Of a stretch of DNA of 64,000 nucleotides, positions 16,794 to 38,054 are shown piece by piece; positions within the stretch are counted from its first letter, which is position 1, and each line of letters starts with the position of its first letter. The position numbers and the translations under genes were made by a program. The DNA is from Firmicutes bacterium HGW-Firmicutes-1 (GTDB lineage: Bacteria > Bacillota > Clostridia > Lachnospirales > Vallitaleaceae). The notes below the pieces were generated by a model, which saw nothing but the letters and a program-made list of their open reading frames with translations, ran no database searches and was not told the DNA's origin. The DNA is taken from contig PHAG01000008.1 of NCBI GenBank assembly GCA_002841625.1, positions 62,001-126,000 of the forward strand, given 5' to 3'.

Positions 16794-16865
16794 AGAAATG
16801 TAGAATTCATAAAGATAACTAGCCGGAGATTCAATGGTAAACGAAACAAGGAAGGTGTATAAACT

Positions 16866-17873: not shown

Positions 17874-17894
17874 AATTCTAAGGAGGTACTTTTT

Positions 17895-18125
17895 ATGGAA
17901 ATCAAAGTTTTAGGACCGGGTTGTAAGAACTGTAAGGTATTAGAAGAAAACACACAAAAAGCAGTGAAAGCGTTAAATCTTGATGCGACAATTGAAAAAG
18001 TAACAGACATGAAGGAAATTATTGGATATGGTGTTATGAGAACACCAGCTCTTGTTGTAGATGGTACGGTTAAGGTGATGGGAAGAGTTCCTTCACCAGA
18101 AGAAATTAAAGAGTTGTTAATTTAA
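17895..18125 (+). CDS. TM0996/MTH895-type glutaredoxin-like protein
   Basis: A 76-residue minimal thioredoxin-fold protein with the redox motif GCKNC (Cys10, Cys13) and a cis-Pro loop RTPALVVDG. Such proteins usually follow DUF318 permeases and probably reduce the permease or its cargo. It begins 21 bases after the permease with AAGGAGG upstream. Its stop codon lies inside the first bases of an inserted palindromic element (TTTAA), so the insertion fell exactly at the 3' end of the gene. Confidence 0.88.
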   Translation: MEIKVLGPGCKNCKVLEENTQKAVKALNLDATIEKVTDMKEIIGYGVMRTPALVVDGTVKVMGRVPSPEEIKELLI

Positions 18126-18264
18126 CCGAATGGAATTAGTTCCCCCACTTCTTAAGTGGGTGAACTAATTCCAACATCGGTGGGGATTCGAGCCCCACTG
18201 ATGTGCAAGTCAAGATTGCATTCGGTAACGAAACCGTAGCGAATGCGGAGGTTTTGTAACATTG
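18121..18264 (+). mobile_element. Palindromic IS605/TnpB-end-like element, copy 2
   Basis: This 144-bp copy has the same ends as the 5847-5992 element (TTTAACCGAATGG, ...GTTTTGTAACATTG) and the same three stems, with the first stem extended to GGAATTAGTTCCCCCACTT pairing with its complement. It overlaps the stop codon of the glutaredoxin gene and is followed by a terminator. It contains no coding capacity. Confidence 0.72.
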
Positions 18265-18300
18265 AATGCTAAAAAGTGGTGTTACTAACCTTAAGTTATT

Positions 18301-18345
18301 ACTAAACAAAACCCACCATGACATAATGAGTGGGTTTTGTTTAGT
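18301..18345 (+). terminator. Terminator after the permease/glutaredoxin unit
   Basis: A perfect 16-bp stem (ACTAAACAAAACCCAC with GTGGGTTTTGTTTAGT) around a 13-base loop is followed by A/T-rich DNA. The stem contains internal T runs. It separates the glutaredoxin gene and its palindromic element from the next operon. Confidence 0.75.
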
Positions 18346-18386
18346 ATAAATAGAGTAAAACAAATTAATTAATAGGGGGAATTTAT

Positions 18387-18905
18387 TTGAACAAGAAAAG
18401 CTGGGTGATTATTGGAGTTGTTATATTGCTAGTAATATCAACATTTTTAATAAAAAATATTATCGGGAAAGACAAAGAGCAAGAGCAGAGTGTGGTCATC
18501 TCAAAACAAACTGAAGATAAGGACAAAGATTTATCTAAAACGAATCTCGAGGAGCAATTTGACTATATCAATAGTCAATCAAAACCAACTTTAATCATTT
18601 TTTCATATGAAGGGGATTGTTGTGAAAGCACGAAGAAGTTTTTTGACGAATACAATACCAATGTTTCACAATTGATGACAGAGTATGAAGATGAATTCGA
18701 ATCACTGCTTATTAATACTGGACTTATTACAAGTGAAGAAGAAAAGGAAGTGCTTATAAAAATTGCAAATGATTATGGAGTTTCAACATTACCTTCAATA
18801 CTTATATGCGATAAAAAAGGTGAGAAAGTTCAGGTGATTGAAGGCCCCTTTGACCTTGAAAAAGTTAAAATAGTAATGAATGAGGTGGTTGACAGTGAGT
18901 CTTAG
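18387..18905 (+). CDS. Membrane-anchored thioredoxin-like protein with vicinal CC
   Basis: A 172-residue protein with one N-terminal membrane helix (WVIIGVVILLVISTFLI), a charged linker and a thioredoxin-like domain ending in a cis-Pro loop (VSTLPSILICDKKG). The usual CxxC is replaced by adjacent cysteines in GDCCES (Cys78, Cys79). The TTG start at 18387 has AGGGGGA 6 bases upstream. It overlaps the following CcdA gene, so it is probably the extracytoplasmic redox partner of CcdA. Adjacent cysteines could also bind As(III); this is speculation. Confidence 0.75.
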   Translation: MNKKSWVIIGVVILLVISTFLIKNIIGKDKEQEQSVVISKQTEDKDKDLSKTNLEEQFDYINSQSKPTLIIFSYEGDCCESTKKFFDEYNTNVSQLMTEYEDEFESLLINTGLITSEEEKEVLIKIANDYGVSTLPSILICDKKGEKVQVIEGPFDLEKVKIVMNEVVDSES

Positions 18906-19563
18906 TTCTGATATGAATATAATAGCTGCATTATTGATTGTCTTTTTCACTGGGCTAATTAGTGGATTAAGTCCTTGTACATTGCCAACAGTAGCTTTTA
19001 CAGTTGCTTATGTAAGTGGTAAACAAAGTACGTCTAAAAAGAAAGCTTTTATTCTATCCCTTGCGTTTGTACTTGGTATTGCATTTATGTTGACAATACT
19101 TGGTATGTTTGCTGGTATGTTAGGAAATGCCTTTCTGAGGAGCAATATCATTAATTACATTATGAGTGGTATATTGATTATCATGGGATTATGGATGTTA
19201 AAGGTAATTGATTTTAGTAGAAATAAGTGCGGTCATAGATTAGAGGCTCATATTCCTAATAAAGGAAGTGGCATTTTAGGGGCATTTGTTCTGGGAATTC
19301 CTTTTGGGATATCTGCATCTCCGTGTACAATGCCGATCACTGCTTCAGTATTGGCTTATTCGGCAACAACACAAAGTGCATTTATTGGAATGCTTATGAT
19401 GTTTACATATGCGATAGGAAGAAGCATCCCGCTGCTAATCGTTGGTACTTTTACAGGCTTACTGAACAACTTAAAAACTATTTCAAAATATCAAAGTAAG
19501 ATAGAAAAAATGAGTGGAGTTTTATTAATTATACTTGCCTTATATTTTATATGGAAGGCGTAA
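18895..19563 (+). CDS. ccdA: CcdA/DsbD-type thiol-reducing membrane protein
   Basis: About six membrane helices with two half-site motifs, GLSPCTLPTVAF and SASPCTMPITAS, mark the CcdA family, which carries electrons from cytoplasmic thioredoxin to extracytoplasmic thiol proteins. I choose the GTG at 18895 (GAGGTGG 6 bases upstream) giving 222 residues; an ATG at 18880 in the same frame is possible. It overlaps the tethered thioredoxin-like gene by 11 bases. The pairing suggests reduction of a disulfide or metalloid outside the membrane. Confidence 0.88.
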   Translation: MSLSSDMNIIAALLIVFFTGLISGLSPCTLPTVAFTVAYVSGKQSTSKKKAFILSLAFVLGIAFMLTILGMFAGMLGNAFLRSNIINYIMSGILIIMGLWMLKVIDFSRNKCGHRLEAHIPNKGSGILGAFVLGIPFGISASPCTMPITASVLAYSATTQSAFIGMLMMFTYAIGRSIPLLIVGTFTGLLNNLKTISKYQSKIEKMSGVLLIILALYFIWKA

Positions 19564-19582
19564 AGAATTTGGAGGATAAAAT

Positions 19583-19816
19583 ATGTCGAAAATGTGGTAT
19601 CCTGTAATAGATTATAGTTTATGCAAAGAATGTGGGGCATGTATTAATCTATGCAGACAGGGCGTTTATGAAAAAGAAGTGTTTAAACCAAAAGTAATTA
19701 ATCCAGATGGATGCATTCAAGGATGTCATGGTTGTGGGAATTTATGCCCTTTAAGTGCAATAGAATATGTGGGCGATACAAACGATTTGAAGAATATTGG
19801 ATGTACCTGTTCGTAA
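19583..19816 (+). CDS. 2[4Fe-4S] ferredoxin-like protein
   Basis: A 77-residue protein with two cysteine clusters: CKECGACINLC near the N-terminus and CIQGCHGCGNLCP in the second half, followed by an extra CTC tail. The second cluster has a C-x3-C-x2-C-x3-C spacing, slightly unlike classical ferredoxins. It lies between ccdA and an MFS transporter, suggesting electron supply to the thiol-redox proteins nearby or to an arsenical reductase not found here. Confidence 0.82.
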   Translation: MSKMWYPVIDYSLCKECGACINLCRQGVYEKEVFKPKVINPDGCIQGCHGCGNLCPLSAIEYVGDTNDLKNIGCTCS

Positions 19817-19856
19817 TAATAGTGAAATATTACACTTGCTTTATATTGGAGGATGT

Positions 19857-21140
19857 ATGTTACAACGAGATGAAACGAATATAGATACGAATGAAAAGAA
19901 TCCCTTAGGACAAAACACTACAGATGAATTCAACGGTTGGAAGAAGAATGTTGTACTCTTTTTGTCGGGTCAAACAATCTCTTTGTTTGGCTCGGCATTG
20001 GTTCAATTTGCTATCATTTGGCATATCACCCTTACAACAAAATCTGGAGTGATGATGACGATATCAACAGTATGCGCCTTTTTGCCTCAATTACTGATAT
20101 CATTATTTGCTGGGGTTTGGGCAGATAGATACAATAGAAAGCTTCTGATTATTTTATCAGATATTTTAATAGCTTCTTCAACCTTTGTATTAGCCATTCT
20201 CTTTTTACTTGGATATGGAAGTCTGTGGCAATTATTCTTGATATCAGGCATAAGGTCTATAGGAACCGGAATTCAATCACCAGCTGTGAACGCCTTTTTA
20301 CCTCAGATTGTTCCAGAGAAAAAGTTGATGAAGGTTAACGGAATTAACAGTAGTATCGGGTCGTCAATTATGTTGATCTCGCCGATTGTTAGTGGTGCGT
20401 TACTTGCAACATCAAAATTTGAGACAACCTTATTTATTGATGTTGTAACTGCTTGTATTGCGGTTTTCATTATGATTCTTTTGAAGGTTTCTCCACACAA
20501 AAAAGCTTCGCAAATACAAACCACTGGTTATTTTGATGATCTAAAAGAAGGACTAAAGTATGTTCAAGATAATCATTTTATCAAAGAGCTTTTATGGTTT
20601 TATGCGCTATTTTTCTTTTTACTGGTTCCAGTTGCGTTCTTAACACCTTTGATGGTGGCGCGCTCCTTCGGTGATGAAGTTTGGAGACTTACAGCGAATG
20701 AGGTCGTATTTTTTTCGGGCTCAATACTCGGTGGAATTGCTATTTCCTTATGGGGAGGTTTGAAAAATCGTATCCATACAATTGCGTTTTCTTGTACTAT
20801 TTTTGGCGTTCTGACGCTTGCTTTAGGGCTATCAAATACCTTTTTTATCTATCTGTTTTTTATGTTTTTGAGTGGCACTGTTGTACCTTTCTTTAGCTCA
20901 GCGATTACAGTATTTCTACAAGAGGAAATTGAGCAAGATATGCAGGGGAGAGTTTTTGGTTTAACTCAAATCGTTATAACTGCTGTTATGCCTTTAGGAA
21001 TGGCATTTTTTGGTCCTATTGCAGATTTGATAAAAATAGAAATTCTATTAATGATAACTGGACTTCTATTAGCTGTATTAGGTGCTAGAATATATTTTGA
21101 TAAGCGAATTACCATAAATGGCTTGACAAATAAATCTTAA
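19857..21140 (+). CDS. MFS transporter, MFS_3-like efflux family
   Basis: A 427-residue, 12-helix major facilitator of the type used for drug or lipid efflux. The loop 2-3 signature GVWADRYNRKLLII is present. I start at the ATG at 19857, which follows TTGGAGGATGT; an earlier in-frame ATG at 19797 lies inside the ferredoxin gene and has no ribosome site. It ends 56 bases before the second arsR, whose promoter overlaps its last codons. Cargo is unknown; location suggests metalloid or thiol-conjugate export. Confidence 0.85.
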   Translation: MLQRDETNIDTNEKNPLGQNTTDEFNGWKKNVVLFLSGQTISLFGSALVQFAIIWHITLTTKSGVMMTISTVCAFLPQLLISLFAGVWADRYNRKLLIILSDILIASSTFVLAILFLLGYGSLWQLFLISGIRSIGTGIQSPAVNAFLPQIVPEKKLMKVNGINSSIGSSIMLISPIVSGALLATSKFETTLFIDVVTACIAVFIMILLKVSPHKKASQIQTTGYFDDLKEGLKYVQDNHFIKELLWFYALFFFLLVPVAFLTPLMVARSFGDEVWRLTANEVVFFSGSILGGIAISLWGGLKNRIHTIAFSCTIFGVLTLALGLSNTFFIYLFFMFLSGTVVPFFSSAITVFLQEEIEQDMQGRVFGLTQIVITAVMPLGMAFFGPIADLIKIEILLMITGLLLAVLGARIYFDKRITINGLTNKS

Positions 21141-21151
21141 AGAGGTAATAT
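21123..21151 (+). promoter_or_regulatory. Promoter of the second arsR operon
   Basis: TTGACA (21123-21128), a 17-base spacer and TAATAT (21146-21151). The -35 lies inside the last codons of the MFS gene, so arsR2-arsD-arsA can be transcribed independently of the upstream genes. Confidence 0.65.
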
Positions 21152-21196
21152 ATTAGTATAATCGAGTTCACTCATATACGAAGGAGGCTATCTAAA

Positions 21197-21583
21197 TTGA
21201 TTTTATCTGAATTATTTAAAGCATTAGGTGATGAAAATAGACTTAGAATTTTGAATTTATTAATTAATGAAGAGCTTTGTGTATGTGAGGTTGAGATGGT
21301 ATTGAATATGACCCAATCTAATGTATCAAGACATCTGAGTAAATTAAAAAGCATGGGCTTGATTGCTTCCTATAAAAAAGCACAATGGGTTTATTATGAA
21401 ATGGATAGTAATTTTATCAATCAATATCCTTTGCTATATGAGTTTCTACAAAATGAGAGCAAGAAGAGCAAAGAATATATGAAAGATATTGAAATCCTTT
21501 CTAAATATAAAAAGAGTAGTTGCACTTTTGTGGAATTTAAAGAATCATTTATCAAAGACAATGAATTTTATGTATCCAAATAA
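21197..21583 (+). CDS. arsR: ArsR-family arsenical repressor
   Basis: A 128-residue winged-helix repressor containing the full ELCVCE motif (Cys28, Cys30) of As(III)/Sb(III)-sensing ArsR proteins and the recognition helix TQSNVSRHLSKLKSMGLI. The start is a TTG with AAGGAGG 9 bases upstream. It precedes arsD and arsA by about 100 bases and probably represses this unit. Confidence 0.93.
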   Translation: MILSELFKALGDENRLRILNLLINEELCVCEVEMVLNMTQSNVSRHLSKLKSMGLIASYKKAQWVYYEMDSNFINQYPLLYEFLQNESKKSKEYMKDIEILSKYKKSSCTFVEFKESFIKDNEFYVSK

Positions 21584-21642
21584 CCCAAAAAGAATATAAT
21601 AGTATATGAGTAGGAAATCCTACTTATTTATTTGACTATTAT

Positions 21643-21666
21643 ATGCTTAAATTCAATTATAAGCAT
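21643..21666 (+). promoter_or_regulatory. Inverted repeat upstream of arsD, possible ArsR operator
   Basis: ATGCTTA and TAAGCAT flank a 10-base A/T-rich centre just upstream of the arsD ribosome site (AAGGAG). A weak TTGACT/AATTAT pair overlaps it. A hairpin-like GTAGGAAATCCTAC palindrome lies about 30 bases earlier and may end the arsR transcript. Operator function is inferred. Confidence 0.45.
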
Positions 21667-21680
21667 GAAGGAGATATATT

Positions 21681-21986
21681 ATGATAATAGAGTTTTATGA
21701 TCCACCAATGTGTTGTTCCACAGGACTTTGTGGCCCAAGTGTTGACGAGAACCTTGTTAAATTAGGTCAAAACATAGATGCACTTAAGACAAAGTATAAG
21801 GATATTCAGATTGAAAGATATATGATTACTCAACAGCCTTTAAAATTCAAAGAAAACACAAGCGTTTTTGAAAAGGTAAAGAAAGAGGGCAAGTCAGTTC
21901 TTCCTATTACGACATTAAATGGAGAAATCATCAAAGTTGGTGAATATCCGACATTAGAAGAATTGGAGGAAAAAATAAATGCCTAA
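21681..21986 (+). CDS. arsD: Arsenic metallochaperone ArsD
   Basis: ArsD carries As(III) or Sb(III) to the ArsA ATPase. The 101-residue protein has the essential cysteines Cys11, Cys12 and Cys17 in PPMCCSTGLCGP, matching Cys12/13/18 of characterised ArsD. The extra C-terminal vicinal cysteine pairs of the plasmid R773 protein are absent, as in many Firmicutes. Its stop overlaps the arsA start by 8 bases, indicating coupled translation with its client. Confidence 0.95.
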   Translation: MIIEFYDPPMCCSTGLCGPSVDENLVKLGQNIDALKTKYKDIQIERYMITQQPLKFKENTSVFEKVKKEGKSVLPITTLNGEIIKVGEYPTLEELEEKINA

Positions 21987-23859
21987 CAAAACGGAATTTA
22001 TTTTCTTTTCAGGCAAAGGCGGAGTAGGCAAAACATCCATGGCATGTACAACTGCAGTTCATTATGCAGACACTGGAAAGAAAACAATGATAGTAACGAC
22101 GGATCCAGCAGCTAATTTATCAGATGTATTTGAACAAGAAATTGGACATAATATAACAAAGATTACTGGTATAAATAATTTGTATGCGATGGAGATTGAT
22201 CCTGATCAATCAACGAAGGAATACAAGGAAAGATCGCTAGAACCAATGAGAGAGCTTTTCGATGAAGAGATGTTGAAAATTGCAGAAGAACAATTAAGTG
22301 GTCCTTGTACCGAAGAAATGGCTTCCTTTGATAAATTTATTGATTTCATGGATGATGATAATTATGATATCATTATTTTTGATACAGCACCTACAGGGCA
22401 CACAATCAGACTGTTGGAGCTTCCGGTTGATTGGAGCAGGCATATTGAAGATAGTTCAAAAGGTAGCGGGCAAACTTGTATGGGCCCAGTTGCATTGATT
22501 CAAGAAAGCAAGCAAAAGTATGATGATGCAGTTGCAAAGCTTAGAGACCCAGAGCAAACTGATTTTGTATTTGTAATGCAACCAGAACAGACTTCTTTTC
22601 AAGAAACAATTAGAGCTTCTAACGAACTTGCACAGATTGGGATAACTACTACAAGAATTATTATCAATGGATTTATACCGAAAGAAGAAGCCATTAATCC
22701 TTTCTTTAAGGCTAGATATGAGATGCAAAGTGAATACCTTAAAAAAGCGAAAGAGACATTTCATAATCTTACAATTCAAACTATGGAATTATTTGATGGC
22801 GAGTTAAAAGGTATACCAATGTTTAGAAAAAGTGGAAGTAAGTTATTCAAGGAGAATTATACAAACGTTGATCCTACAGAGAAAGGTGATTCTGAGGTTA
22901 AAGTGCCAACAATAAACTCGGTAAAAAATGACTTGCAAATGAATGATTCTGAATTAGATCTTGCAACACTTATATATCCTGTAAAGGGTAAGAGAAAACA
23001 CATATTTTTCTCTGGAAAAGGTGGTGTAGGAAAAACTTCTTTAGCATGTCTTACCGCTGTTCAAACAGCAAAAAAAGGTTTTAAGACTTTGCTAATGACA
23101 ACCGATCCAGCAGCTCATATTGGTAATGTATTAGATAAACCAGTATCTGATGAAGTAACAGAGATTGACGGCGTAAAAAATCTATACGCAGTTAAAATTG
23201 ATCAAAAGAAAGCCACAGAAGATTACAAAGAATCCATATTAGTGGATGCTAGAAAAAACTTTGAAGCAGGTACTATTAAAGCAATGGAAGAGGAATTAGA
23301 TTCACCTTGTACCGAGGAAATGGCATCTTTCCAAAAGTTTATGGAATATGTAGGTGGGGATGAATTTGAAGTTATTGTATTTGATACCGCACCTACAGGT
23401 CATACACTTAGATTGTTAGAACTACCAATGGACTGGAGTAAACAAATACAACTAAAAGCAGGACTTTCAACGAAAATTAGCGAAGCTGATAAAATTCAAA
23501 AAGAAAGATTTGACAAAGTCATCGAAATGATGAAAAATAAAGAAGAAACAACCTTTGGATTTGTTATGTATCCAGAAAAAACACCAATTATAGAAGCGTA
23601 TAGAGCCTCTGAAGAATTAAGAACAGTGGGTGTTAACACACAGCTTGTTGTTGCTAATCTTATTATTCCGGAAGAACAAGCAATTACACCGTTTTTTGAA
23701 AATCGTAGGAATATGCAACAAAAATATTTAAAAGAAATTCATGAACAATTTGCTAATGCTAAGATTCTAAAAGTACCAATGCAAGAAAAAGAGATCAGAG
23801 GCATTGCAATGTTAACTAAAATGTCAGAAAACATATTTGGAGGGAAAGAACATGAGTAA
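21979..23859 (+). CDS. arsA: Two-domain arsenite-stimulated ATPase ArsA
   Basis: ArsA is the cytoplasmic ATPase that energises As(III) extrusion through ArsB/Acr3-type pumps. The 626-residue protein holds two homologous ATPase halves, each with a deviant Walker A (FFSGKGGVGKTS, residues ~9-20 and ~340-351) and the DTAPTGHTxRLLELP switch II motif. A Cys is kept in each half in the metal-site region (GPCTEEMASF, SPCTEEMASF). arsD overlaps the start and a Cys-rich gene overlaps the end. No ArsB or Acr3 gene is nearby. Confidence 0.95.
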   Translation: MPNKTEFIFFSGKGGVGKTSMACTTAVHYADTGKKTMIVTTDPAANLSDVFEQEIGHNITKITGINNLYAMEIDPDQSTKEYKERSLEPMRELFDEEMLKIAEEQLSGPCTEEMASFDKFIDFMDDDNYDIIIFDTAPTGHTIRLLELPVDWSRHIEDSSKGSGQTCMGPVALIQESKQKYDDAVAKLRDPEQTDFVFVMQPEQTSFQETIRASNELAQIGITTTRIIINGFIPKEEAINPFFKARYEMQSEYLKKAKETFHNLTIQTMELFDGELKGIPMFRKSGSKLFKENYTNVDPTEKGDSEVKVPTINSVKNDLQMNDSELDLATLIYPVKGKRKHIFFSGKGGVGKTSLACLTAVQTAKKGFKTLLMTTDPAAHIGNVLDKPVSDEVTEIDGVKNLYAVKIDQKKATEDYKESILVDARKNFEAGTIKAMEEELDSPCTEEMASFQKFMEYVGGDEFEVIVFDTAPTGHTLRLLELPMDWSKQIQLKAGLSTKISEADKIQKERFDKVIEMMKNKEETTFGFVMYPEKTPIIEAYRASEELRTVGVNTQLVVANLIIPEEQAITPFFENRRNMQQKYLKEIHEQFANAKILKVPMQEKEIRGIAMLTKMSENIFGGKEHE

Positions 23860-24731: not shown

Positions 24732-25115
24732 ATGGGAACTAGAAATAAGATACTTTCAGTTGACGATTCTTTAACAATGAGAAAGATAATTAAAAGTCAT
24801 GTTGAGGCATTAGGCTATGAATTGTTAGAAGCATCAGAGGGCGCAAATGGACTACAAGTTCTCAACAACGAAATTCACAATATAGGTCTTATTTTACTTG
24901 ATTGGAATATGCCGGGCATGAATGGGATGGAATTTTTGCAGAAGGTTAAAAGTAATGTCCTATATCATAATATCCCTATTATTATGGTGACAACGGAAGC
25001 GGAAAGAGAAAGTATAGTAAAAGCTGTGCAACAAGGAGTGAGTAACTATATCCTAAAACCGTTTACCAACGAAGAGCTAACAAAAAAAATCAATCAGTGT
25101 ATAAGGAGAGATTAG
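24732..25115 (+). CDS. cheY: CheY-like single-domain response regulator
   Basis: A 127-residue receiver domain: acidic pair DD (residues 11-12), phospho-acceptor Asp57 in LLDWNMPGMNG, Thr in MVTTEAE and Lys in LKPFT. The DWNMP and TTEAE motifs are those of the PatA/CheY-like group found with MCP clusters. It sits 4 bases before cheX, whose product would dephosphorylate it. With no flagellar genes in view, the output target is unknown. Confidence 0.93.
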   Translation: MGTRNKILSVDDSLTMRKIIKSHVEALGYELLEASEGANGLQVLNNEIHNIGLILLDWNMPGMNGMEFLQKVKSNVLYHNIPIIMVTTEAERESIVKAVQQGVSNYILKPFTNEELTKKINQCIRRD

Positions 25116-25119
25116 ATTC

Positions 25120-25599
25120 ATGAATATAGGCGAAATAAAAGGAATAGAATTTGGAAATCAATTCGCTAAAGTCATAAAAGATATTATGAATTCAACATCT
25201 AATTTGAATCTAACTGTTCAAAATGCAAGTGAAGAAAATGAAAAAGAATATCCCAGTTTTATAACAGGAATAATGGTGCTACAGGGAACAAGAGATGTTG
25301 TATTGACATTAACCTTTTCGAAAATGGCTGCGGCTGAAATCGTTAAATCTTTATTGGGAATCAAATATGATAAGATGGTTGATGTGGAAGTTTATGATAC
25401 GGTAATGGAAATTACAAACATGATAGCTGGAAGGCTGAAAACAGCAATTATAGCTACGGGTGAACACTATCAACTTACCACTCCATTTGTGTTTGTGGGA
25501 GCTAACCATTTTATAGGAGCCAAAACGAGACCAATAGGTATTGTTAAAAAATTTAAAGACAGTCATTTTGAAATGCTAGCAGGAGTTTTCTTTCTGTAA
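25120..25599 (+). CDS. cheX: CheX-like chemotaxis phosphatase
   Basis: A 159-residue protein of the CheX/CheC phosphatase superfamily, which removes phosphate from CheY. The catalytic E-x2-N motif is present in VMEITNMIAGRLKTAI (Glu97, Asn100) followed by the expected helix. Adjacent cheY supports the assignment. A stem-loop region follows the stop. Confidence 0.88.
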   Translation: MNIGEIKGIEFGNQFAKVIKDIMNSTSNLNLTVQNASEENEKEYPSFITGIMVLQGTRDVVLTLTFSKMAAAEIVKSLLGIKYDKMVDVEVYDTVMEITNMIAGRLKTAIIATGEHYQLTTPFVFVGANHFIGAKTRPIGIVKKFKDSHFEMLAGVFFL

Positions 25600-26758: not shown

Positions 26759-26793
26759 TAGAGAAAATCTGGTAGTCATGAAAGGATTTGACA

Positions 26794-28023
26794 ATGCAAA
26801 AACTTAATATTAAGACAATGGGAAAAACAATTAGGGAAATCGCCAGTCAAAGAAAAGCTGAAAACAAGACGTTTTGTACCGATTACTTAAAAACACTATC
26901 GCAAGATCAAAACATTACCCCAGAGACTGTTGAGTCCAATGATATGAATTGTACCGACGGTTATTTTGAGCTGACTAAAAATGAGTATAAACTAACAACA
27001 TTTAGCGATATAACCTTTGGCAAAGGCAAAGCAGTTAGCGAAGATGATTTAATCAAGATTTCAGGAGTTTGCTTTTATTACTGTAGCTTTTCTATGTGTG
27101 GTTTCAGTAACATATCCTTTGAAAATTGTTCCTTTGTTGGGTGTGATTTTATTGAATGTTATACACTTGGAATGGTTTTAGTATTTAGAAATTGTAGTTT
27201 CGTAAGTCGTTCGCTTGGGAAAAAAAGCATAGAGGACATGCCTTCATTATTTGAAAGTTGTGAATTTACCGTGAAATTTTTTAATTGTGATGTGTCTTCG
27301 ATTATTTTTAATAAAACCCAATTCTACTTTTCCTATTTTGAAAATGTAAATATGTACGATGCGATTTTTCTAGATTGTAGCTTTGATACTACGCAAATAC
27401 GCGGATGCAATCTAAAAAGCACTAGAATTATCAATCCTAAATTCATAGAATTTTATGTAGATGATCTGGATAAAAAGACGAAAGTGGATCGAAAAACGTT
27501 TTTAGATTATATCTGCTACAATAAAAAAGAGAAAAGAGAGGTTAGAGATGCCATTGAAGTCTACTATGCCTTCAGTGAATTATTTGAAAACAATAAAATA
27601 ATGGACTTTAGCGGTGAGTACTTTTTTTTGAGTCAGACGACAGGAATTAGACAGCTGGAAGGCTTTGCGAAGTTCAAATCCATTATAAGTCTTATCGCCT
27701 GTGGTTATGGAGAAAGACCTTCCTACGGTCTTATGACTTCGATGACCTTGGTGCTGGTATGTGGAACCTTATATATGATATTTGGTGTAAATGTTAACAA
27801 TGAAGTATTTGCTTTTCAACCAACCCTAGGAAATCTTTTTCCAACAATTGATAATTTGATTATGTGGTATCATTTTAGTCTGGTGACATTCTGTACCGTT
27901 GGTTACGGAAATGTTCTTCCGATTGGAGGGAGTCTCATCGTATCCGCTATTGAAATGGTGCTTGGCGTTGTAATGATAGGAATTTGGGTATCTACTTTGG
28001 TCAGGAAGATGACAAGGAATTAA
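26794..28023 (+). CDS. Pentapeptide-repeat protein fused to a potassium-type ion channel
   Basis: This 409-residue protein has a cytoplasmic N-terminal half with degenerate pentapeptide repeats (CSFSMCGFSNISFENCSFVGCDF and later FENVNMYDAIFLDCSF), then a two-helix channel module. The pore holds the selectivity filter TVGYGN between two membrane helices (LVLVCGTLYMIFGV and VSAIEMVLGVVMIGIWVSTLV). Only one pore unit is encoded, so a tetramer is expected. ATG 26794 with AAAGGA 7 bases upstream is preferred over TTG 26788. Its place between two CheY-type operons suggests a role in chemosensory signalling; this is inference. Confidence 0.85.
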   Translation: MQKLNIKTMGKTIREIASQRKAENKTFCTDYLKTLSQDQNITPETVESNDMNCTDGYFELTKNEYKLTTFSDITFGKGKAVSEDDLIKISGVCFYYCSFSMCGFSNISFENCSFVGCDFIECYTLGMVLVFRNCSFVSRSLGKKSIEDMPSLFESCEFTVKFFNCDVSSIIFNKTQFYFSYFENVNMYDAIFLDCSFDTTQIRGCNLKSTRIINPKFIEFYVDDLDKKTKVDRKTFLDYICYNKKEKREVRDAIEVYYAFSELFENNKIMDFSGEYFFLSQTTGIRQLEGFAKFKSIISLIACGYGERPSYGLMTSMTLVLVCGTLYMIFGVNVNNEVFAFQPTLGNLFPTIDNLIMWYHFSLVTFCTVGYGNVLPIGGSLIVSAIEMVLGVVMIGIWVSTLVRKMTRN

Positions 28024-28081
28024 TTTGGTACCTTTGAAGTACATATAAAGAGATAAAAATTTAATTAAAGGTGGAATGAAT

Positions 28082-28456
28082 ATGAGCAATAAAATTCTAT
28101 TTGTAGACGATTCTTCGGTAATAAAAAAGATTGTCCAACGTACAGTTGAATCCGCTGGGTTTGAATTTCTAGGGGCTTCTGATGGGAAAGAGGCACTTTT
28201 GGTACTAACCAAGGAAAGTAGTAACACGAAACTGATTTTATCTGATTGGAATATGCCAGTAATGAATGGATTTGATTTTTTAAAAGAGGTGAAAAAAAAT
28301 AATACATATAAGCATATACCTGTAATCATGATCACCACTGAAGCAGAAAAAAGCAATATCAATAAAGCAATACAGGCTGGTGCTGCAAATTATCTATTAA
28401 AACCCTTTAACCCAGAAGATTTACTTTTAAAGATTAAGCAAACTGCCCTTGAGTGA
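28082..28456 (+). CDS. cheY: CheY-like single-domain response regulator (second copy)
   Basis: A 124-residue receiver domain related to the product of 24732-25115: DD pair at residues 9-10, phospho-acceptor Asp55 in LSDWNMPVMNGF, ITTEAEK and LLKPFNP. ATG 28082 with AAAGGTGG 7 bases upstream is the better start; the ATG at 28076 is too close to that site. Having two cheY genes in one cluster allows one to act as a phosphate sink or to serve a different output. Confidence 0.92.
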   Translation: MSNKILFVDDSSVIKKIVQRTVESAGFEFLGASDGKEALLVLTKESSNTKLILSDWNMPVMNGFDFLKEVKKNNTYKHIPVIMITTEAEKSNINKAIQAGAANYLLKPFNPEDLLLKIKQTALE

Positions 28457-30285: not shown

Positions 30286-32469
30286 ATGGAAAATGTTATT
30301 TTTGTTAATGAGGAAAAATGTGTAGGTTGTAACAAGTGTATAAGAAATTGTTTGGTAGTGGGTGCGAATGCCTCCTACTTATTAGAGGGCGAAAACAAAG
30401 TAAAGATAAATTCGGAAAAGTGTATTTTGTGCGGAAAATGTATTGAAGTATGTAGCCATGAGGCCAGAGATTTTATGGATGATACTGAAATATTTTTTGA
30501 AGATTTGGGAAGAGGTAAAAAAATATCAGTAGTTGTAGCACCTTCTGTCAGAGTGAATTTCGTAGATTATGAAAACTTGTTTGGATTTCTCAAGTCAAAA
30601 GGCGTGGACGTAATTTATGATGTATCCTTCGGAGCAGACATCACTACATGGGCCTATTTAAAGGTGATTAAGGATATGAATTTATCAACGGTAGTTGCTC
30701 AGCCATGTCCAGCAATTGTTAGCTATATAGAAAAATATAAGCCTGAACTTATTCCAAGGCTAGCACCAATTCACAGTCCAATGACTTGTACAGCAGTGTA
30801 CCTGAAACGATATGCAAATGTTTTTAGTGATATAGCCTTTTTATCTCCTTGTATTGGTAAAATAAATGAAATTAATGATTCGAATACCAACGATTATGTT
30901 AAATACAATTTAACTTTTAAAAAATTGACTGACTATATGGAGAAGAATAAAATAAACCTGGCTAACTACCAAAAAGCTGAATTTGAGGATATTGGTTGTA
31001 GTCTAGGCTGCTTGTTTAGTAGACCAGGGGGACTTCGTGAAAATGTGGAAGTCAAGGTGAAGAATGCATGGATCAGACAAGTAGAAGGTCAAGAGCATGC
31101 TTATAGCTATCTGGATGAATATAGTGACAGATTAAAAAACAATGAACCTGTCCCACTGTTGGTGGATATTTTAAACTGTCCACATGGATGTAGTCTTGGT
31201 ACAGCCACCTCGAAAAACATTACAATAGATGATTCGGATTTTAGATTGAACAAATTAAAGGTAGAAAAACTGAGTGATAAGGGTGGAAAATTGGTCACAA
31301 GAAAAATAGACTGGCTTTACCAACAATTTGATAAAACACTTAAACTGGATGACTTTACAAGGAAATACAATACTAATTTGAGAATAGAGTCCTTGAAAGT
31401 ACCTACAGATGCACAATACGATGAAATTTTTACCAAGATGCATAAAGTTACAAAGCGAGAAAAAGAATTGAACTGTTCGGCATGTGGATTCAATACCTGC
31501 CACGAAATGGTAGAGGCTATTTTTAACGGATTAAATGACATTTCTAGCTGTATTTATTATAACAAGAGTGAAATTAATCTGGAGAGAGAGCATTTGGAAT
31601 TGAACAATAACACCTTGGAAGCCAAAAACAGCGAAATGAACAATGCATTAGAAGAAGTTAAAATGTTAAGTGAAGAAAGACTTAAAAAATCAGAGGAAAT
31701 AGAGACCATTATCAAGAAACTGGCAGCAGCTTCGACAAAAACCTCGTCTGGAATAGAAGAAATAAATTCGATTATGGGTGGAATTGCTGATAATACGAAC
31801 AACGTATCCAATTTTACAAAGGATGTTTCTTCGTCTGTAAATAGTGTGGTTTTGGCTATGAAGGAGATTAATATTTCACTTAATGAGATCAGTCATAATT
31901 GCGAGCGTTCTAAAAACATAACGACTGATGCAGAGGAAAAAGCTAAAGATACCAACAGAATTATTGATACCTTGAATACCTCATCCAAGCAGATTGGAAA
32001 AATTGTAAAGGTAATAAACGAGATTGCCGACCAAACAAATATGCTGGCACTGAATGCTGCAATCGAAGCAGCCGGTGCTGGAGAAGCCGGCAAGGGATTT
32101 GCTGTTGTTGCAGGTGAAGTAAAAGAATTGGCAAGACAAACCGCAGATTCTACAGAAGAAATTGGACAACAGATTGAAGTCATGCAAAATAATATGGCTG
32201 ATGTAGTGAGTGCTATGGGGACTATAATAGAGGTCATCGATGAGATGACAAGCATTACAAACACCATTGCTGCAGCGGTATCAGAGCAGTCGGCGGTTTC
32301 AGGAAATATTTCAGGTGCAGCAGTCACTGCAGCTGAAAAGGTTAACCTGATCACAGAAAAGACTAGGGACATTGCTGTTAGCTCGCAAAATGCTGCAAAA
32401 AGTATCGCCGAAGCTGCTGTAGGCATCAAGGATCTGGCATCAACAGCTTCTGAACTTTCAGTTGTATAA
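30286..32469 (+). CDS. Soluble chemoreceptor: ferredoxin + H-cluster-like (FeFe hydrogenase) domain + FeS domain + MCP signalling domain
   Basis: This 727-residue protein has no membrane helix. Order: 2[4Fe-4S] ferredoxin (Cys12/15/18/22 and 46/49/52/56); hydrogenase large-subunit-like domain with all four H-cluster ligand positions (Cys141 in VAQPCPAIV, Cys189 in [10 protein letters not shown], Cys298 and Cys302 in [10 protein letters not shown]); a [4Fe-4S] motif Cys397/400/405/422 (CSACGFNTC); a coiled coil (~430-480); an MCP signalling domain with tip [18 protein letters not shown] (~579-596). The proton-shuttle Cys that precedes the first ligand in catalytic enzymes is Pro140, and the GGG of motif L3 is altered, pointing to sensing of H2 or redox state rather than turnover. 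It lies directly upstream of cheA. Confidence 0.92.
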
Positions 32470-32501: not shown

Positions 32502-35500
32502 ATGCTGGATGATAATGATTTTGTGCAAAGTTTTGTTGAGGAAGCTAGGGTTCATGTTGAAACGGTTGAAACCGAACTGATGCAATTAGATTTAAGTAAT
32601 GTAAATGATGAAGCCATTAATAACATTTTTCGTGCGGTGCATAGTATTAAAGGAACATCAGGATTTTTGGATCTTACAAAAATCGTGAAGCTTTCTCATT
32701 CTATGGAAAATATCTTTGGTGAAATCCGTTCGGGAAAGATGAAAATCAATGATGGAATGATTGATATTTTATTGTCTGCCAATGATTGTATGAAAACCAT
32801 GGTGGATGATGTGAAAAGTAGTGAAGAGGTTGAGATTTCGGAATTTCTGGATAAACTATCAACTATTTTGTCGGGTCAGTTTTCAGAAAAAGTAGAGCTT
32901 ACAAAAACTGTTAATTCTGCCCCAAATACTTTGGGTAGTAGTGTTTTTGCGGCAACAGAAGTGAAAAAACAAAAAATTCAGGATTCAGTTGGGCGAGGAC
33001 ATAAAATATATCGAATAAAGAAAAGCCTTGAAAAGGATTTGATTCAAAATGACATTACGTTGATTCAGTTTATACAACAGGTTGGTTCTTATGGCACGGT
33101 TATCGACTGCTCAGTAGATATGGAAGGATTGTTGGACTCAGGCGATGAAACACAGGATGTAGGTCTAGAGTTTTTATTTACAACTGTCCTAGAAAAGGAT
33201 TTATTGTCTATGGCACTTAATTTGTCAGAAGAAGATATCTGCGAAATGAATCCGCTGGAGGAAGAAGAAAAACCAGTGGAAATGGGAAAGGAGGAACCAC
33301 CAACGCAGGTTCCTGTGGAAAATGTAGTAGTGGTTGCACATGAAGAAGGTGATAAGGAAGTACATACAAATAAGGGACAGTCGATTGTTCCAGAAGACAG
33401 TATTCGTGTAAATGTCATGCTGCTTAACGATTTATTAAATTTGGCTAGTGAAATGGTACTTGCCAAGAATCAATTGCTTAGATCAATTGATAGCCATAGA
33501 AAGAGTATTCCAGGAATTGAGCCCATTTTTCAAAACATCAATCATATCACCACCAATCTGCAGGAAAAAATTATGCAGACAAGGATGCAACCCATAGCTA
33601 TTGTTTTCAATAAATTCCCAAGGATTATCCGAGAATTGTCTAAAAAGCTTGGTAAGGATATTCATCTGGAAATGGAAGGGATCGACGTTGAACTTGACAA
33701 ATCTATTATCGAAGCGTTAGGAGACCCGCTAACCCATCTTATAAGAAATGCAGTAGACCATGGCTTAGAATTACCTGATGCCAGAGAGAAGCAAGGAAAG
33801 AAAAGGGTAGGCTCAGTCACATTAAAGGCATATCACGAAGGTGGCTATGTGAATATCGATATTATTGATGATGGTAAGGGAATTGATATTGAATATATAA
33901 AAGAAAAGGCACTTTCGAAGGGTTTTGTAGATAAGTTTGATATAGCTACAATGGGTGATCAGGACATACTTAAATTGCTCTTCAAACCAGGATTTTCAAC
34001 TGCTGAGATCGTAACAGACATTTCGGGCAGAGGCGTTGGAATGGATGTAGTAAAAACCAATATTGAAAAGCTAGGTGGGACTATCGAGATATTTACCGTT
34101 CTACATGTTGGAACGACATTTCGACTTTTATTACCCCTAACACTTGCAATTATTCCATCTTTAATTGTGGAGTCTGAAAATCAGAAATTTGCACTACCTC
34201 AGGTGAACCTGCAGGAGATTGTACGTATTAAAGCAAGTGATCCCGCAAGAAGAATTGAGTATATCAATAATGCAGAAGTATTACGACTCCGAGACAAACT
34301 ATTGCCTATTGTTCACCTTTCAGAAGTTTTAGGAATGGAGAGAACTTTTATTGACCAGAATACGGGTGAAAGGGTCGAGGAAAAAAGAAGAAACCTGTTT
34401 CATTCAAGGCGCGTCAATCAGCAAACTGTTCCCAAAGAAAATGATCTGCGTGAGATTGGTGATCGCCGACAATTAAATAATATTAATATTGTAAGAATTC
34501 TCGTTATCAAAATTGGATCTAGGCGGCTTGGACTTGCGGTAGATGCCATTCATGGTAGTGAAGAAATTCTTGTTAAAACCTTACCAGTCTATGTCAAAGA
34601 TTGTAAGTGCTATTCAGGGGTAACCATCCTTGGAGATGGAAAGACATCTATGATTTTGGATCCAAGCGGAATTATTGAAAAAGCAAATCTACATTATTTT
34701 GATGGAATGGATGAAAAAAATCTCAAAGATGTGACCTTGGAAAGTGAAAATATGAGAGAGACTCAGAATCTTCTTCTGTTTCAATGCTCGGGACCTGAAA
34801 CATTGGCCCTTAATATGGCTATGGTGTCCAGGGTTGAGGAGATTAAAGCGGAAGACATTGACAAAATAGGAGACAAGGAATATATCAAATTCAGAGGAGA
34901 ATCTCTTAGGGTAGTCAGACCCGAAGATTTTATTCCCATAACCAATCAAAAAAGTCTGAAAAGTAAATATTATGTCATCATTCCTAAATTAGTAGGCCAT
35001 CCTATGGGAATTCTCATTGAAAAAATTCAGGACACAGTTCAGGCGGTAGTTCATATCAAGCAGGATGACAATATTACGGAGAAGGGATTGATTGGATCTA
35101 CCATTTTAAACAATACTATTATTTTGTTGGTAAATATTTATGAGCTTTTTGAGAAAGCCAATCCAGAACATTACAAAGTTGAAACCACAATAAAGAAAGG
35201 TGTGAAAATGAACATCCTTCTAGTAGAAGATACGCCATTCTTTCAAAAACTTGAAAAAAGTTATCTTGAAGATGCGGGATACAATGTGCATTTGTCAGAG
35301 AATGGTAAAGAAGCTATGGAATTTTTACAAACTGAAAAAGTTGATGCGGTTGTAAGTGATATCGTCATGCCTATAATGAATGGTTTGGAGCTTGTTAGAA
35401 AAATTCGTGCAAATCCTGCTTTGAACCACTTGCCAGTAATAGCCATCACATCTCTAACAGGTGAATCACAGATAAAAGAGGGCATGAAAGCTGGATTTGA

Positions 35501-35582
35501 TGCCTATGAGTTTAAATTGGATAGGCAAAAACTACTTGATATTCTTGAGCAGGCTATACAAAAAAGGAGTGTAGAGGTATGA
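32502..35582 (+). CDS. cheA: CheA histidine kinase with two CheW-like domains and a C-terminal receiver
   Basis: A 1026-residue hybrid CheA. The Hpt domain has His47 in VHSIKGTSGF. A divergent CheY-binding region and an acidic/Pro linker follow, then the dimerisation helix (NDLLNLASEMVLAKNQLL), the ATPase boxes (N: HLIRNAVDHG; G1: DDGKGID; G2: SGRGVGMDVV), a CheW domain, a second CheW-like domain (~750-880) and a receiver with acceptor Asp in VVSDIVMPIMNG. Such hybrid CheA proteins usually serve non-flagellar chemosensory pathways. The ATG at 32502 has GGGGAG 13 bases upstream, a long spacing; no better in-frame start exists because a stop lies just upstream. Confidence 0.93.
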   Translation: MLDDNDFVQSFVEEARVHVETVETELMQLDLSNVNDEAINNIFRAVHSIKGTSGFLDLTKIVKLSHSMENIFGEIRSGKMKINDGMIDILLSANDCMKTMVDDVKSSEEVEISEFLDKLSTILSGQFSEKVELTKTVNSAPNTLGSSVFAATEVKKQKIQDSVGRGHKIYRIKKSLEKDLIQNDITLIQFIQQVGSYGTVIDCSVDMEGLLDSGDETQDVGLEFLFTTVLEKDLLSMALNLSEEDICEMNPLEEEEKPVEMGKEEPPTQVPVENVVVVAHEEGDKEVHTNKGQSIVPEDSIRVNVMLLNDLLNLASEMVLAKNQLLRSIDSHRKSIPGIEPIFQNINHITTNLQEKIMQTRMQPIAIVFNKFPRIIRELSKKLGKDIHLEMEGIDVELDKSIIEALGDPLTHLIRNAVDHGLELPDAREKQGKKRVGSVTLKAYHEGGYVNIDIIDDGKGIDIEYIKEKALSKGFVDKFDIATMGDQDILKLLFKPGFSTAEIVTDISGRGVGMDVVKTNIEKLGGTIEIFTVLHVGTTFRLLLPLTLAIIPSLIVESENQKFALPQVNLQEIVRIKASDPARRIEYINNAEVLRLRDKLLPIVHLSEVLGMERTFIDQNTGERVEEKRRNLFHSRRVNQQTVPKENDLREIGDRRQLNNINIVRILVIKIGSRRLGLAVDAIHGSEEILVKTLPVYVKDCKCYSGVTILGDGKTSMILDPSGIIEKANLHYFDGMDEKNLKDVTLESENMRETQNLLLFQCSGPETLALNMAMVSRVEEIKAEDIDKIGDKEYIKFRGESLRVVRPEDFIPITNQKSLKSKYYVIIPKLVGHPMGILIEKIQDTVQAVVHIKQDDNITEKGLIGSTILNNTIILLVNIYELFEKANPEHYKVETTIKKGVKMNILLVEDTPFFQKLEKSYLEDAGYNVHLSENGKEAMEFLQTEKVDAVVSDIVMPIMNGLELVRKIRANPALNHLPVIAITSLTGESQIKEGMKAGFDAYEFKLDRQKLLDILEQAIQKRSVEV

Positions 35583-36022
35583 AGATGAAGGTACTTACAT
35601 TTTATCTTTGTGAAAGTCTCCTGGGTATTGATGTAACTTTGGTGAAGGAAATCAACAGAAATGTGGATTTTTCAGTCGTACCGGGATCACAGCAGTATAT
35701 CGTTGGATTTTTAAATATGCGAGGACAGGTAGTAACACTCTTTAACTTAGCAAATCTTATTAATCTGGAAAGTGAAAATATTCAAAAAGCGCATACGTGT
35801 ATTATCTTGAAATCTCCAAAGGATCCTGATCAGGTGGGATTTTTAATAGACCATCCAGGTGATGTAATAGATATTGATCAAGAGGAATGTGAACTGCCAC
35901 CTGCTAATGTTGGTGGGGTCGAGGGTGAATTTATCAGTAGTATTGTTAAACTTGAAAATGAACTTTTAATCATAATAGATCCTACAAAGATATTTAAAGA
36001 TCAAAGAAATATTGAGGGATAA
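35579..36022 (+). CDS. cheW: CheW coupling protein
   Basis: A 147-residue CheW, which docks CheA to receptors. The fold signature FYLCESLLGIDVTLVKEI and the hallmark VVPGSQQYIVGFLNMRGQVVTLFNL are clear. It overlaps cheA by 4 bases. It begins with MKMKV; the first ATG is used because it has GTAGAGGT just upstream. Confidence 0.93.
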   Translation: MKMKVLTFYLCESLLGIDVTLVKEINRNVDFSVVPGSQQYIVGFLNMRGQVVTLFNLANLINLESENIQKAHTCIILKSPKDPDQVGFLIDHPGDVIDIDQEECELPPANVGGVEGEFISSIVKLENELLIIIDPTKIFKDQRNIEG

Positions 36023-36073
36023 TTCGTTGCGCTGCATGTTACTTGAGAACATATCATAATGGGGGGATGTTTT

Positions 36074-37204
36074 TTGAAAAGCCTGAAGATATTGTTAGTG
36101 GATAGTTCTGTCATAACAAGAATGGCTATGCTTGAAGTCATCAATGCAACGCGGTACGGTGTTGTAGAGCGAGCAACTTCCGATGGAAGCATTGCGCTTG
36201 AATGGCTAAAGCAGTGTGTGATTGATGTTGTAATGATTGATGTTATGATTATAAGAAAAGAAGGTCTTGACCTACTCGAATTGATAAAAAGTAGTTATCC
36301 GGAAATTGAAATTATCATCATGAGTAACGATCATCCGGAAAGCCCTTCAATTACATTGGATTCACTTAAAGCAGGTGCAATGGATTTTATACAAAAATTA
36401 CCTGAAAAGGAATTGGTGAAAAGACAAGGCGAGTTAAAAGCACAACTCCAAGACCTTTTTACACAGATTTTATTAAAAAAATTCTCGGATGTTTCCAGAA
36501 TTAGTATACCAAGTGAATACAAAGAGAAAGTTAGAAACGAAGGAACTATGATTAACGCTACGGATCAGCAAAAAAGAGAGAACAATACATGGAAAAGCGA
36601 AATATTCGGTGGTATTGATTTGATTTTGATTGCATCTTCAACGGGAGGTCCAGTAGCTTTAGATACTATATTCAGTACGTTCGGTTCAAAAATTCATAAA
36701 CCCATATTGATTGTTCAACATATGCCCCCTGATTTTACAAATATAATGGCGCAGAAGTTGCATGATAAATACAATTTGCAAATTACAGAAGGCAAAGACA
36801 AAGAAGTTATAAATGATGGAAATATTATGATTGCCCCAGGCGGTCTGCACATGACCATTGAAGCATGTGGAAGATTTGAAAAGGTCATTCGCCTAATAGA
36901 TGAAGGCTTTGTGAATGGGGTTAAACCTTCTGCAGATGTTCTCTTTCAATCTGTCGCTGATTCCTTCGAAGGTAAAAATATCTTGGTCGTAATTCTTACT
37001 GGTATGGGTAATGATGGTACGCAAGGGATTATTAAACTAAAGAAGCATTGCAATTGTTACTGCATAACCCAAAGTGAAAGTACTTGTGTGGTGTATGGAA
37101 TGCCCAAGTGTGTTTATGAGGCAGGATTGTCAGATGAAGTGGTTGATCTAGGAGATATTGCTTCTCGTATCCATCAGATTGCACTGGAACGGGGAGGGCG
37201 TTAG
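36074..37204 (+). CDS. cheB: CheB methylesterase
   Basis: CheB removes receptor methyl groups when phosphorylated. The receiver domain keeps the acceptor region (VVMIDVMIIRKEGLDLL) but has VDSS in place of the usual double-acid pair, so phosphorylation may be weak. The catalytic triad is intact: Ser in ASSTGGPVAL, His in QHMPPDFT, Asp in GMGNDGTQG. I favour the TTG at 36074 (GGGGGG 7 bases upstream); an ATG at 36059 overlaps that site. Length is 376 residues. Confidence 0.93.
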   Translation: MKSLKILLVDSSVITRMAMLEVINATRYGVVERATSDGSIALEWLKQCVIDVVMIDVMIIRKEGLDLLELIKSSYPEIEIIIMSNDHPESPSITLDSLKAGAMDFIQKLPEKELVKRQGELKAQLQDLFTQILLKKFSDVSRISIPSEYKEKVRNEGTMINATDQQKRENNTWKSEIFGGIDLILIASSTGGPVALDTIFSTFGSKIHKPILIVQHMPPDFTNIMAQKLHDKYNLQITEGKDKEVINDGNIMIAPGGLHMTIEACGRFEKVIRLIDEGFVNGVKPSADVLFQSVADSFEGKNILVVILTGMGNDGTQGIIKLKKHCNCYCITQSESTCVVYGMPKCVYEAGLSDEVVDLGDIASRIHQIALERGGR

Positions 37205-37205
37205 G

Positions 37206-38054
37206 GTGGGGAAAGTACTGACATCAAAAGAGATTAGCATGATCCAGAAGCTTATTGAAGATAGATTTGGAATCTTTTTAGAGGAAGAAAAAACATACCT
37301 GCTTGATAACAAGCTGAGTAAAATCCTATCCAAGTCAAGCCTTGGGAGTTTTGAGGAATTATATACCCAAATATGCCATAGGAATAATCCTGAGCTTATT
37401 GACGATATCATAGATGCAATTACAGTGAATGAGACCTTCTGGTTTAGAGACAGAACTCCCTGGTTTATTATGGAAGAGATATTGCTTCCAACCTATATAG
37501 CCGAGTTCAGAGAGGGGAAGCGGGACCTTGTACGGATTTGGAGTGGCGCCTGCTCTTATGGTCAGGAACCATATTCAATTGCCATGAGTATTGACCGTTA
37601 TCTAAAACACCATAACATCCATGAGCTTAACCTTAGTCATTTCGAAATTTTAGCCACTGATATATCGCGTACCGTTCTTCAAAGGGCCAAGATGGGAGTA
37701 TATGACAATATTTCTATTCAACGTGGGTTGGATGAAGCCAATAGATTAGAGTATTTTAAAAACGACGGAAAGATATGGAGCATAAATGATAAAATTAGGA
37801 ATGCGGTTAGGTTTGAACAAATTAATCTCATTCAGGAATCCTTTCCTAGTAAGAGATTTGACATCATCTTTTTCAGAAATGTTTTGATTTATTTTTCGGA
37901 CAAACAAAAAAAAGAAATGATGTGTAAAATCAAAGATGTATTAAGGCCAGGAGGAACACTATTTATAGGGAGTTCAGAGTTATTTGAGGATCATAAACCG
38001 AATTTCTCCATGGCACAGTATAAAAATGGGATTTATTTTAGATTAGAGGAATGA
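37206..38054 (+). CDS. cheR: CheR chemoreceptor methyltransferase
   Basis: A 282-residue SAM-dependent methyltransferase that methylates receptor glutamates. The N-terminal helical domain leads to the conserved NETFWFRD, IWSGACSYGQEPYSIAM and FFRNVLIYFS motifs. The GTG at 37206 follows GGGGAGGG at a normal distance and lies one base after the cheB stop; a longer frame from 37158 would overlap cheB. With cheB it makes the adaptation module for the two receptors. It is the last gene of the cluster. Confidence 0.93.
   Translation: MGKVLTSKEISMIQKLIEDRFGIFLEEEKTYLLDNKLSKILSKSSLGSFEELYTQICHRNNPELIDDIIDAITVNETFWFRDRTPWFIMEEILLPTYIAEFREGKRDLVRIWSGACSYGQEPYSIAMSIDRYLKHHNIHELNLSHFEILATDISRTVLQRAKMGVYDNISIQRGLDEANRLEYFKNDGKIWSINDKIRNAVRFEQINLIQESFPSKRFDIIFFRNVLIYFSDKQKKEMMCKIKDVLRPGGTLFIGSSELFEDHKPNFSMAQYKNGIYFRLEE

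Follow-up and report, generated by a model that had tools for sequence, protein, structure and literature searches.

A soluble chemoreceptor with a hydrogenase-fold sensor domain: iron-sulfur redox switch or hydrogen receptor?

Directly upstream of cheA, Firmicutes bacterium HGW-Firmicutes-1 carries a gene in which a hydrogenase-type domain is joined to a chemoreceptor signaling domain, and the question is what such a receptor senses. We analyzed the gene within a 64,000-nucleotide stretch of the genome, here called the window, together with its relatives in other genomes. The receptor probably reads the redox state of the cell or hydrogen and steers swimming.

The first-pass annotation had described a chemoreceptor fused to an H-cluster-type domain, with two ferredoxin clusters and a further CxxC-x4-C...C motif. 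This description was confirmed. PF02906 and MCPsignal both scored over cut-off in one open reading frame, the ferredoxin sites were found by Pfam, and all cysteines were located (Table 1). The C-terminal motif is exactly Cx2Cx4Cx16C and consists of C397, C400, C405 and C422. Neither the transmembrane segments nor the HAMP domain of a transmembrane-type MCP were found in the protein: the maximal 19-residue hydropathy mean was 1.14, and Pfam gave no HAMP match and no PAS match (PAS at E 0.001). The NCBIfam models of [FeFe] hydrogenases scored under their cut-offs (TIGR04105 127.1 vs 450; TIGR02512 105.3 vs 405.95).

Table 1. The receptor gene and its neighborhood, with positions in the window; fractions give the number of related modules that keep a residue.
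Feature	Position	Strand	Basis or conservation
Receiver gene (cheY-like)	24732..25115	+	Pfam
cheX phosphatase gene	25120..25599	+	Pfam
Pentapeptide-repeat stretch fused to ion-channel-like domain	26788-28023		Pentapeptide over cut-off, Ion_trans_2 just below
Second receiver gene (cheY-like)	28076..28456	+	Domain search
Neighboring MCP with N-terminal hydrophobic segment	28608..30188	+	Pfam, hydropathy
Whole receptor gene: 727-aa soluble chemoreceptor with hydrogenase-fold sensor	30286..32469	+	ATG start; Pfam
Two [4Fe-4S] ferredoxin sites, about aa 5-60 (C12/15/18/22, C46/49/52/56)	30298..30465	+	Pfam ferredoxin families, matches within aa 6-60
H-domain PF02906 (Fe_hyd_lg_C), aa 78-305, ligands C141/C189/C298/C302	30517..31200	+	Pfam 107.7 bits, cut-off 22.1
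L1 signature QPCP, aa 139-142, with Pro140 in place of the proton-relay Cys	30700..30711	+	Q139 in 120/129, P140 in 123/129
C168 in SPxxC, three residues past P165	30787..30789	+	C in 123/129
L2 signature SPCIGKINE, aa 187-195, Ser at the M353 (CpI) position	30844..30870	+	S187 117/129, K192 123/129, E195 129/129
L3 signature DILNCPHGC, aa 294-302	31165..31191	+	D294 124/129, L296 121/129, N297 110/129
C-terminal cluster domain FeS (PF04060), aa 395-424	31468..31557	+	Pfam 29.8 bits, cut-off 23
Predicted helix, aa 423-534, directly after C422, connector to MCP stalk	31552..31887	+	AF2 model; no Pro, HAMP or PAS
MCP signaling domain MCPsignal (PF00015), aa 538-716	31897..32433	+	Pfam 121.6 bits, cut-off 34.6
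cheA: Hpt, H-kinase_dim, HATPase, three CheW stretches, receiver	32502..35582	+	Pfam
cheW	35579..36022	+	Pfam
cheB	36059..37204	+	Pfam
cheR; read from its first start it overlaps cheB, but translation may begin further downstream	37158..38054	+	

The annotation had placed the MCP output outside the known sensory hydrogenases. This does not hold, and we rejected the idea that the MCP fusion is unprecedented, since HydDB (2016) already names [FeFe] group C2 'Chemotactic (putative)' (PMC5037454, Table 1). As described there, C2 is like the window protein in having an H-domain tied to an MCP as a presumed sensor, PF00015 being found in the same window protein; the group is defined by sequence cluster, with its role given as undetermined (PMC5037454). 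C2 matches were discarded as not validated in PMC9431212, and surveys count group C genes as putative sensory hydrogenases (e.g., PMC12578642). Searches of the open-access literature listed no experimental study of an MCP-tied H-domain.

Relatives of the first 435 aa were found in 86 of the 392 genomes of the order to which the window genome belongs (E 1e-48). Among GTDB species genomes there are at least 584 relatives, of which the best 80 were kept; those listed include Clostridium acetireducens, Alkalithermobacter paradoxus and several Desulfosporosinus, and also proteins from Spirochaetales, Selenomonadales and Acidobacteriota genomes. The detailed comparison covers 129 modules of 85 of these 86 genomes of the order; the module of G088, with in-frame stops, was left out. 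The H-cluster ligand cysteines are at positions 141, 189, 298 and 302 as the annotation claimed, and all four are cysteines in 129 of 129 modules. The proton-shuttle cysteine was likewise found to be replaced by proline, Pro140 standing at the position of C299 in CpI. The L3 motif, also claimed to be altered, differs from EIMACPGGCIGGGGQP of a group A enzyme of the same genome, and Leu296 is found at the M497 (CpI) position. The L2-motif lysine, K358 in CpI, is kept as K192. The position of C168 is Met or Ala in all 14 reference rows. In short, the family is marked by QPCP, SPCxxKxxE and DxLNC. All four cysteines of the C-terminal cluster are kept in every one of the 129 modules and the ferredoxin cysteines in 126 or 127, the remainder being gaps.

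The group D protein TamHydS is reported to relay protons via E252 and E289 and not via C299, and the residual H2 oxidation activity of its E252V variant is below 0.01 as given in the paper (PMC10407848). Mapped through an alignment with a group D-like protein, the E252 position is Leu250 (Leu in 118 of 129 modules) and the E289 position is Asp294 (Asp in 124 of 129). The positions of C299 (group A) and E252 (group D), the two known proton relays next to the [2Fe] site, are Pro and Leu, respectively. A Leu at the E252 position argues against fast turnover, because E252V is nearly dead in TamHydS. The loss of the relay was not accepted as proof against an H-cluster, since TmHydS is described as active despite Ala at C299, and group C as lacking a kept E252 (PMC10055695, PMC10407848). 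Pro is reported at the C299 position in about 10% of HydDB sensory sequences (PMC10055695).

As published, the group C protein TmHydS (M2f) resembles the window protein in its H-domain, its Cx2Cx4Cx16C cluster and the loss of C299. It differs in its PAS domain and in the residues at M353 (Gly) and M497 (Ser), whereas the window protein has no PAS match and has S187 and L296. TamHydS (M2e) shares with the window protein Ser at M353, Leu at M497 and the C-terminal cluster motif, but is described with no further domain and uses E252 and E289, where the window protein has an MCP tail, Leu250 and Asp294. TamHydS takes up the H-cluster in vitro.

The phylogeny that the annotation had proposed as a check placed the window protein outside the group A and B rows, in a clade of its own. 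The QPCP modules form one side of a branch in an unrooted tree (45 of 95 rows, SH-aLRT 100), with reference rows of 19 group A, 8 group B, 9 C-like and 14 group D-like proteins. These labels were assigned by size and motifs, for the group D-like rows by length, motif and the residues published for TamHydS, and the sequences of TmHydS and TamHydS are not among the rows. The split persisted in a second tree without five long or odd rows, although the long D and QPCP branches meet there, which calls for caution. The sensor thus forms a clade distinct from the A, B, C-like and D-like rows, which is new here. The window protein differs from group A by this separate clade and by Pro140, Ser187 and Leu296 at C299, M353 and M497, and from group D by Leu250 and Asp294 at E252 and E289 and a clade apart from the D-like rows. 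The C-like rows with a PAS-like tail likewise fall in a different clade from the window protein. Of four C-like tails scanned, those of L027, L030 and L033 gave weak PAS matches with scores near the cut-offs and that of L047 gave none; the whole proteins L027 and L033 yielded none at E 1e-4 either. The QPCP clade is presumably HydDB group C2. Unlike C2 as described, it is also coupled to kinases and to GGDEF and EAL domains, and its occurrence does not follow that of HydG. In the tree, L236, from a record titled Calditrichales bacterium, is sister to the window protein and that of G004, with a module 68% identical; this placement points to a mislabeled genome or a transfer.

Structure prediction, another check proposed by the annotation, gave a hydrogenase fold. 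An AF2 model of aa 1-430, made from an alignment of 70 family members, had a pLDDT of 93.7, and its best solved matches were [FeFe]-hydrogenases (Foldseek E 7e-22). VIA aligned 347 residues to CbA5H (Z 39.7, rmsd 2.8), with CpI and HydA also listed; its rows mostly span aa 1-368, so that the C-terminal cluster domain is hardly covered by the fold comparison. The full-length AF2 model had a mean pLDDT of 76, with the MCP part below 65. In this model aa 423-534 form a single helix of which the first part alone is firm, pLDDT being below 70 from about aa 461. There is no Pro within aa 423-560 of the window protein.

One sensor is plugged into several outputs, of which the MCP is the commonest in these samples. 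In 20 members scanned with Pfam we found seven MCPs, seven histidine kinases with receiver (Hpt in three), two GGDEF and three GGDEF-EAL proteins, and in one no output domain was found. By text pattern, the 129 modules comprise 83 with MCP, 27 with kinase or c-di-GMP output judged by length, two with GGDEF, six with none and 11 unsure. The distance from the last cluster cysteine to the MCP tip, readable in 32 of the 129 members, is 104, 108, 110, 111 or 160 residues, and that of the window protein, 160, is seven heptads more than 111. We read the connector as a rigid coiled coil that, as modeled, would couple sensor and output without HAMP or PAS. Seven members of 558-564 aa (L133, L134, L141-L143, L151 and L154; family code f12) have a helical C-terminal part, in which Pfam found no output domain in the one scanned (L142). 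All seven f12 loci have a conserved neighbor of 355-420 aa upstream.

The position of the gene directly before cheA was as annotated, cheA starting 32 bp downstream. The che run is mostly on the same strand, with one opposite-strand gene and the pentapeptide/channel-like gene between CheX and the second receiver. The MCP part of the receptor is 56% identical to the neighboring MCP (155/276). Since this alignment is free of gaps over 276 residues, it suggests that the fusion receptor and the neighboring MCP may talk to the same CheA. Arsenic-resistance genes are located just before the che cluster at 16446-23856 (two ArsR-type regulators, ArsP permease, ArsD and ArsA). The H2 or redox taxis which the annotation deduced is plausible for a hydrogenase-fold sensor that sits on a chemoreceptor, falls outside groups A and B and has lost its relay residues. 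Adjacency to cheA is not a family rule: among 202 loci with clustered neighbors, cheA is directly downstream in only three, those of the window (G000) and of its two nearest relatives, G004 and L236. The CheA neighbor cluster comprises five loci, and in G114 and G128 CheA is five genes upstream. No linkage to hydrogenase genes stood out among the 30 largest neighbor clusters of these loci, judged from one example per cluster and, for six clusters, from more.

HydG is a maturase of the H-cluster. The genes hydEFG, named by the annotation as a further check, were found in the window genome with all three products over cut-off (HydE 548.9, HydF 593.4 and HydG 662.6 bits), HydE having been sought in this genome only. 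The same genome encodes five other PF02906 proteins: three are as large as group A enzymes, a fourth has 476 aa, and the fifth, of 441 aa, is group D-like. HydG was found in 170 of the 392 genomes of the order at a threshold of E 1e-100. With the kinship of genomes ignored throughout these counts, the module was not associated with HydG (36 of 86 module genomes vs 134 of 306 others, p 0.81), nor was it when the comparison was limited to genomes that have a further PF02906 hydrogenase at E 1e-45 (36/80 vs 133/275, p 0.61). PF02906 proteins at E 1e-45 or better did track HydG (169 of 355 genomes vs 1 of 37). This set comprises groups A and B and some C-like proteins, and is not groups A and B alone because the C-like L027 and L033 reach E 1.8e-52 and 2.6e-48. 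Group D-like proteins were weakly associated with HydG (48/79 vs 122/313, p 0.0006), an association that faded outside the family of the window genome (31/61 vs 120/309, p 0.09). A recheck at 1e-15, covering the 50 HydG-negative module genomes, added G097, over cut-off in pieces (37/86); the association counts and the pocket counts by HydG treat G097 as negative, and the 306 other genomes were searched at 1e-100 only. Neither HydG nor HydF was found in 42 of the 86 module genomes, HydF having been sought in the 50 HydG-negative ones only. Six genomes (L204-L209; G166, G145, G250, G286, G292 and G131) and G379 have HydF with an adjoining radical SAM protein, taken for HydE, and no HydG over cut-off.

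Six module genomes have no PF02906 match at E 1e-12 other than QPCP modules, which number 11 in total. HydG was found in none of these six and HydF in one; they are 96, 90, 99, 61, 71 and 99% complete. P140, C168, S187, K192 and E195 are kept in all 11 modules, and the pocket signature is likewise kept in the 83 modules of HydG-negative and the 46 of HydG-positive genomes. If the pocket served a [2Fe] subcluster it would be expected to drift where no [2Fe] is made, so the unchanged pocket counts for a pocket working without [2Fe].

The absence of HydG was rejected as proof of such a pocket, because HydG was also undetected in 186 of the 355 genomes with other PF02906 hydrogenases (E 1e-45), nearly complete ones included, and in 31 of the 79 with group D-like proteins. 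Among 13 group A-like enzymes examined in genomes scored negative for HydG, six show the usual motif, TSCCPAW or TSCCPGW. In eight of 19 fetched group A-like rows (L005 from the window genome, L216, L220-L224 and L227) L1 is TSCSPGW, with Ser at the usual ligand Cys position; this motif is printed in PMC3787301. ProPhylo is reported to have turned up a few species that carry genes for [FeFe]-hydrogenase yet lack the maturases (PMC3226654), and a motif-based search did not detect HydG in five out of eight acetogens of the genus Clostridium (PMC9431212). Either detection or the knowledge of maturation is incomplete, and therefore we hold a [2Fe]-free pocket at about even odds.

A strong rival to a redox receptor is a true H2 chemoreceptor, as in the hypothesis behind HydDB C2, in which a full H-cluster is inserted by HydEFG, its redox state follows H2 or the H+/H2 balance while turnover stays low, and the cell is guided by H2 through the MCP domain. 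The hydrogenase fold, the four ligands, the L2 lysine and the pocket prolines are all kept, HydE, HydF and HydG occur in the window genome beside five other PF02906 proteins, and TmHydS and TamHydS are reported to work without C299. The module is, however, not associated with HydG and occurs in genomes without HydG or another PF02906 protein, and the E252 position is Leu in 118 of 129 modules, where the E252V variant of TamHydS is described as barely responding to H2. We regard H2 reception as a serious possibility at distinctly less than an even chance. Much less probable is gas avoidance, by which O2, NO or CO would bind to C168 or to the adjoining open site of a pocket with a [4Fe-4S] cluster alone, in place of taxis to the redox state of ferredoxin; the family-specific C168 (123 of 129) would suit it, and presumed anaerobes would gain from avoiding O2, but both ferredoxin sites are intact, which speaks for an exchange of electrons with carriers. 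A catalytic hydrogenase with an incidental MCP tail would agree with the fold and the ligands, but was rejected as very improbable, since the protein falls in its own clade outside the group A and B rows, its relay residues are lost, and 68 of the 80 named relatives (the best 80 of at least 584) have the MCP pattern, others having kinases or c-di-GMP domains.

The explanation that we prefer, at an even chance for the reading as a whole, is a soluble cytoplasmic chemoreceptor in which the QPCP-clade H-domain acts as a redox switch based on iron-sulfur clusters. Reduced ferredoxin, or a comparable low-potential carrier, would pass electrons to the two N-terminal [4Fe-4S] sites, and these electrons would determine the state of a cluster presumably held by C141, C189, C298 and C302. 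The state of this cluster may shift the packing against the C-terminal Cx2Cx4Cx16C domain. The C-terminal cluster is spoken against as the switch itself, because that of TamHydS is described as unchanged in redox state under H2 (PMC13104023). The last cysteine of this cluster is at the start of the long helix that is predicted to run into the MCP hairpin without HAMP or PAS, and the hairpin would control CheA together with the neighboring MCP.

For this redox switch, we consider it slightly more probable than not that the [2Fe] subcluster is dispensable for signaling. The lack of association with HydG and the unchanged pocket in genomes without it are suggestive only. The L2 lysine kept in 123 of 129 modules, the HydE, HydF and HydG of the window genome and the activity of TmHydS count against a [2Fe]-free pocket, as does the low completeness of two of the six decisive genomes (61% and 71%). 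A precedent is given by Nar1/IOP1, whose H-domain is reported to work without [2Fe] (PMC12621388). The likeness is meant as precedent only, Nar1/IOP1 being eukaryotic and acting in Fe-S assembly whereas the QPCP clade is a bacterial sensor. Tentatively, and at somewhat below an even chance, we propose that Nar1 has a widespread bacterial counterpart in the QPCP clade, whose hydrogenase fold would have lost [2Fe] and become a plug-in Fe-S redox sensor of chemoreceptors, histidine kinases and c-di-GMP enzymes, in which case the 'chemotactic hydrogenases' of C2 would not be hydrogenases.

The MCP tie was known from HydDB C2, whereas the separate clade, its signatures and its spread in 86 of 392 genomes are new, and this family-level result is the part worth following. 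If the pocket does hold an H-cluster, the protein would be a direct receptor for H2 taxis. If it works without [2Fe], inventories of sensory hydrogenases would list too many H2 sensors, and chemoreceptors of a large class may respond directly to the redox state of ferredoxin.
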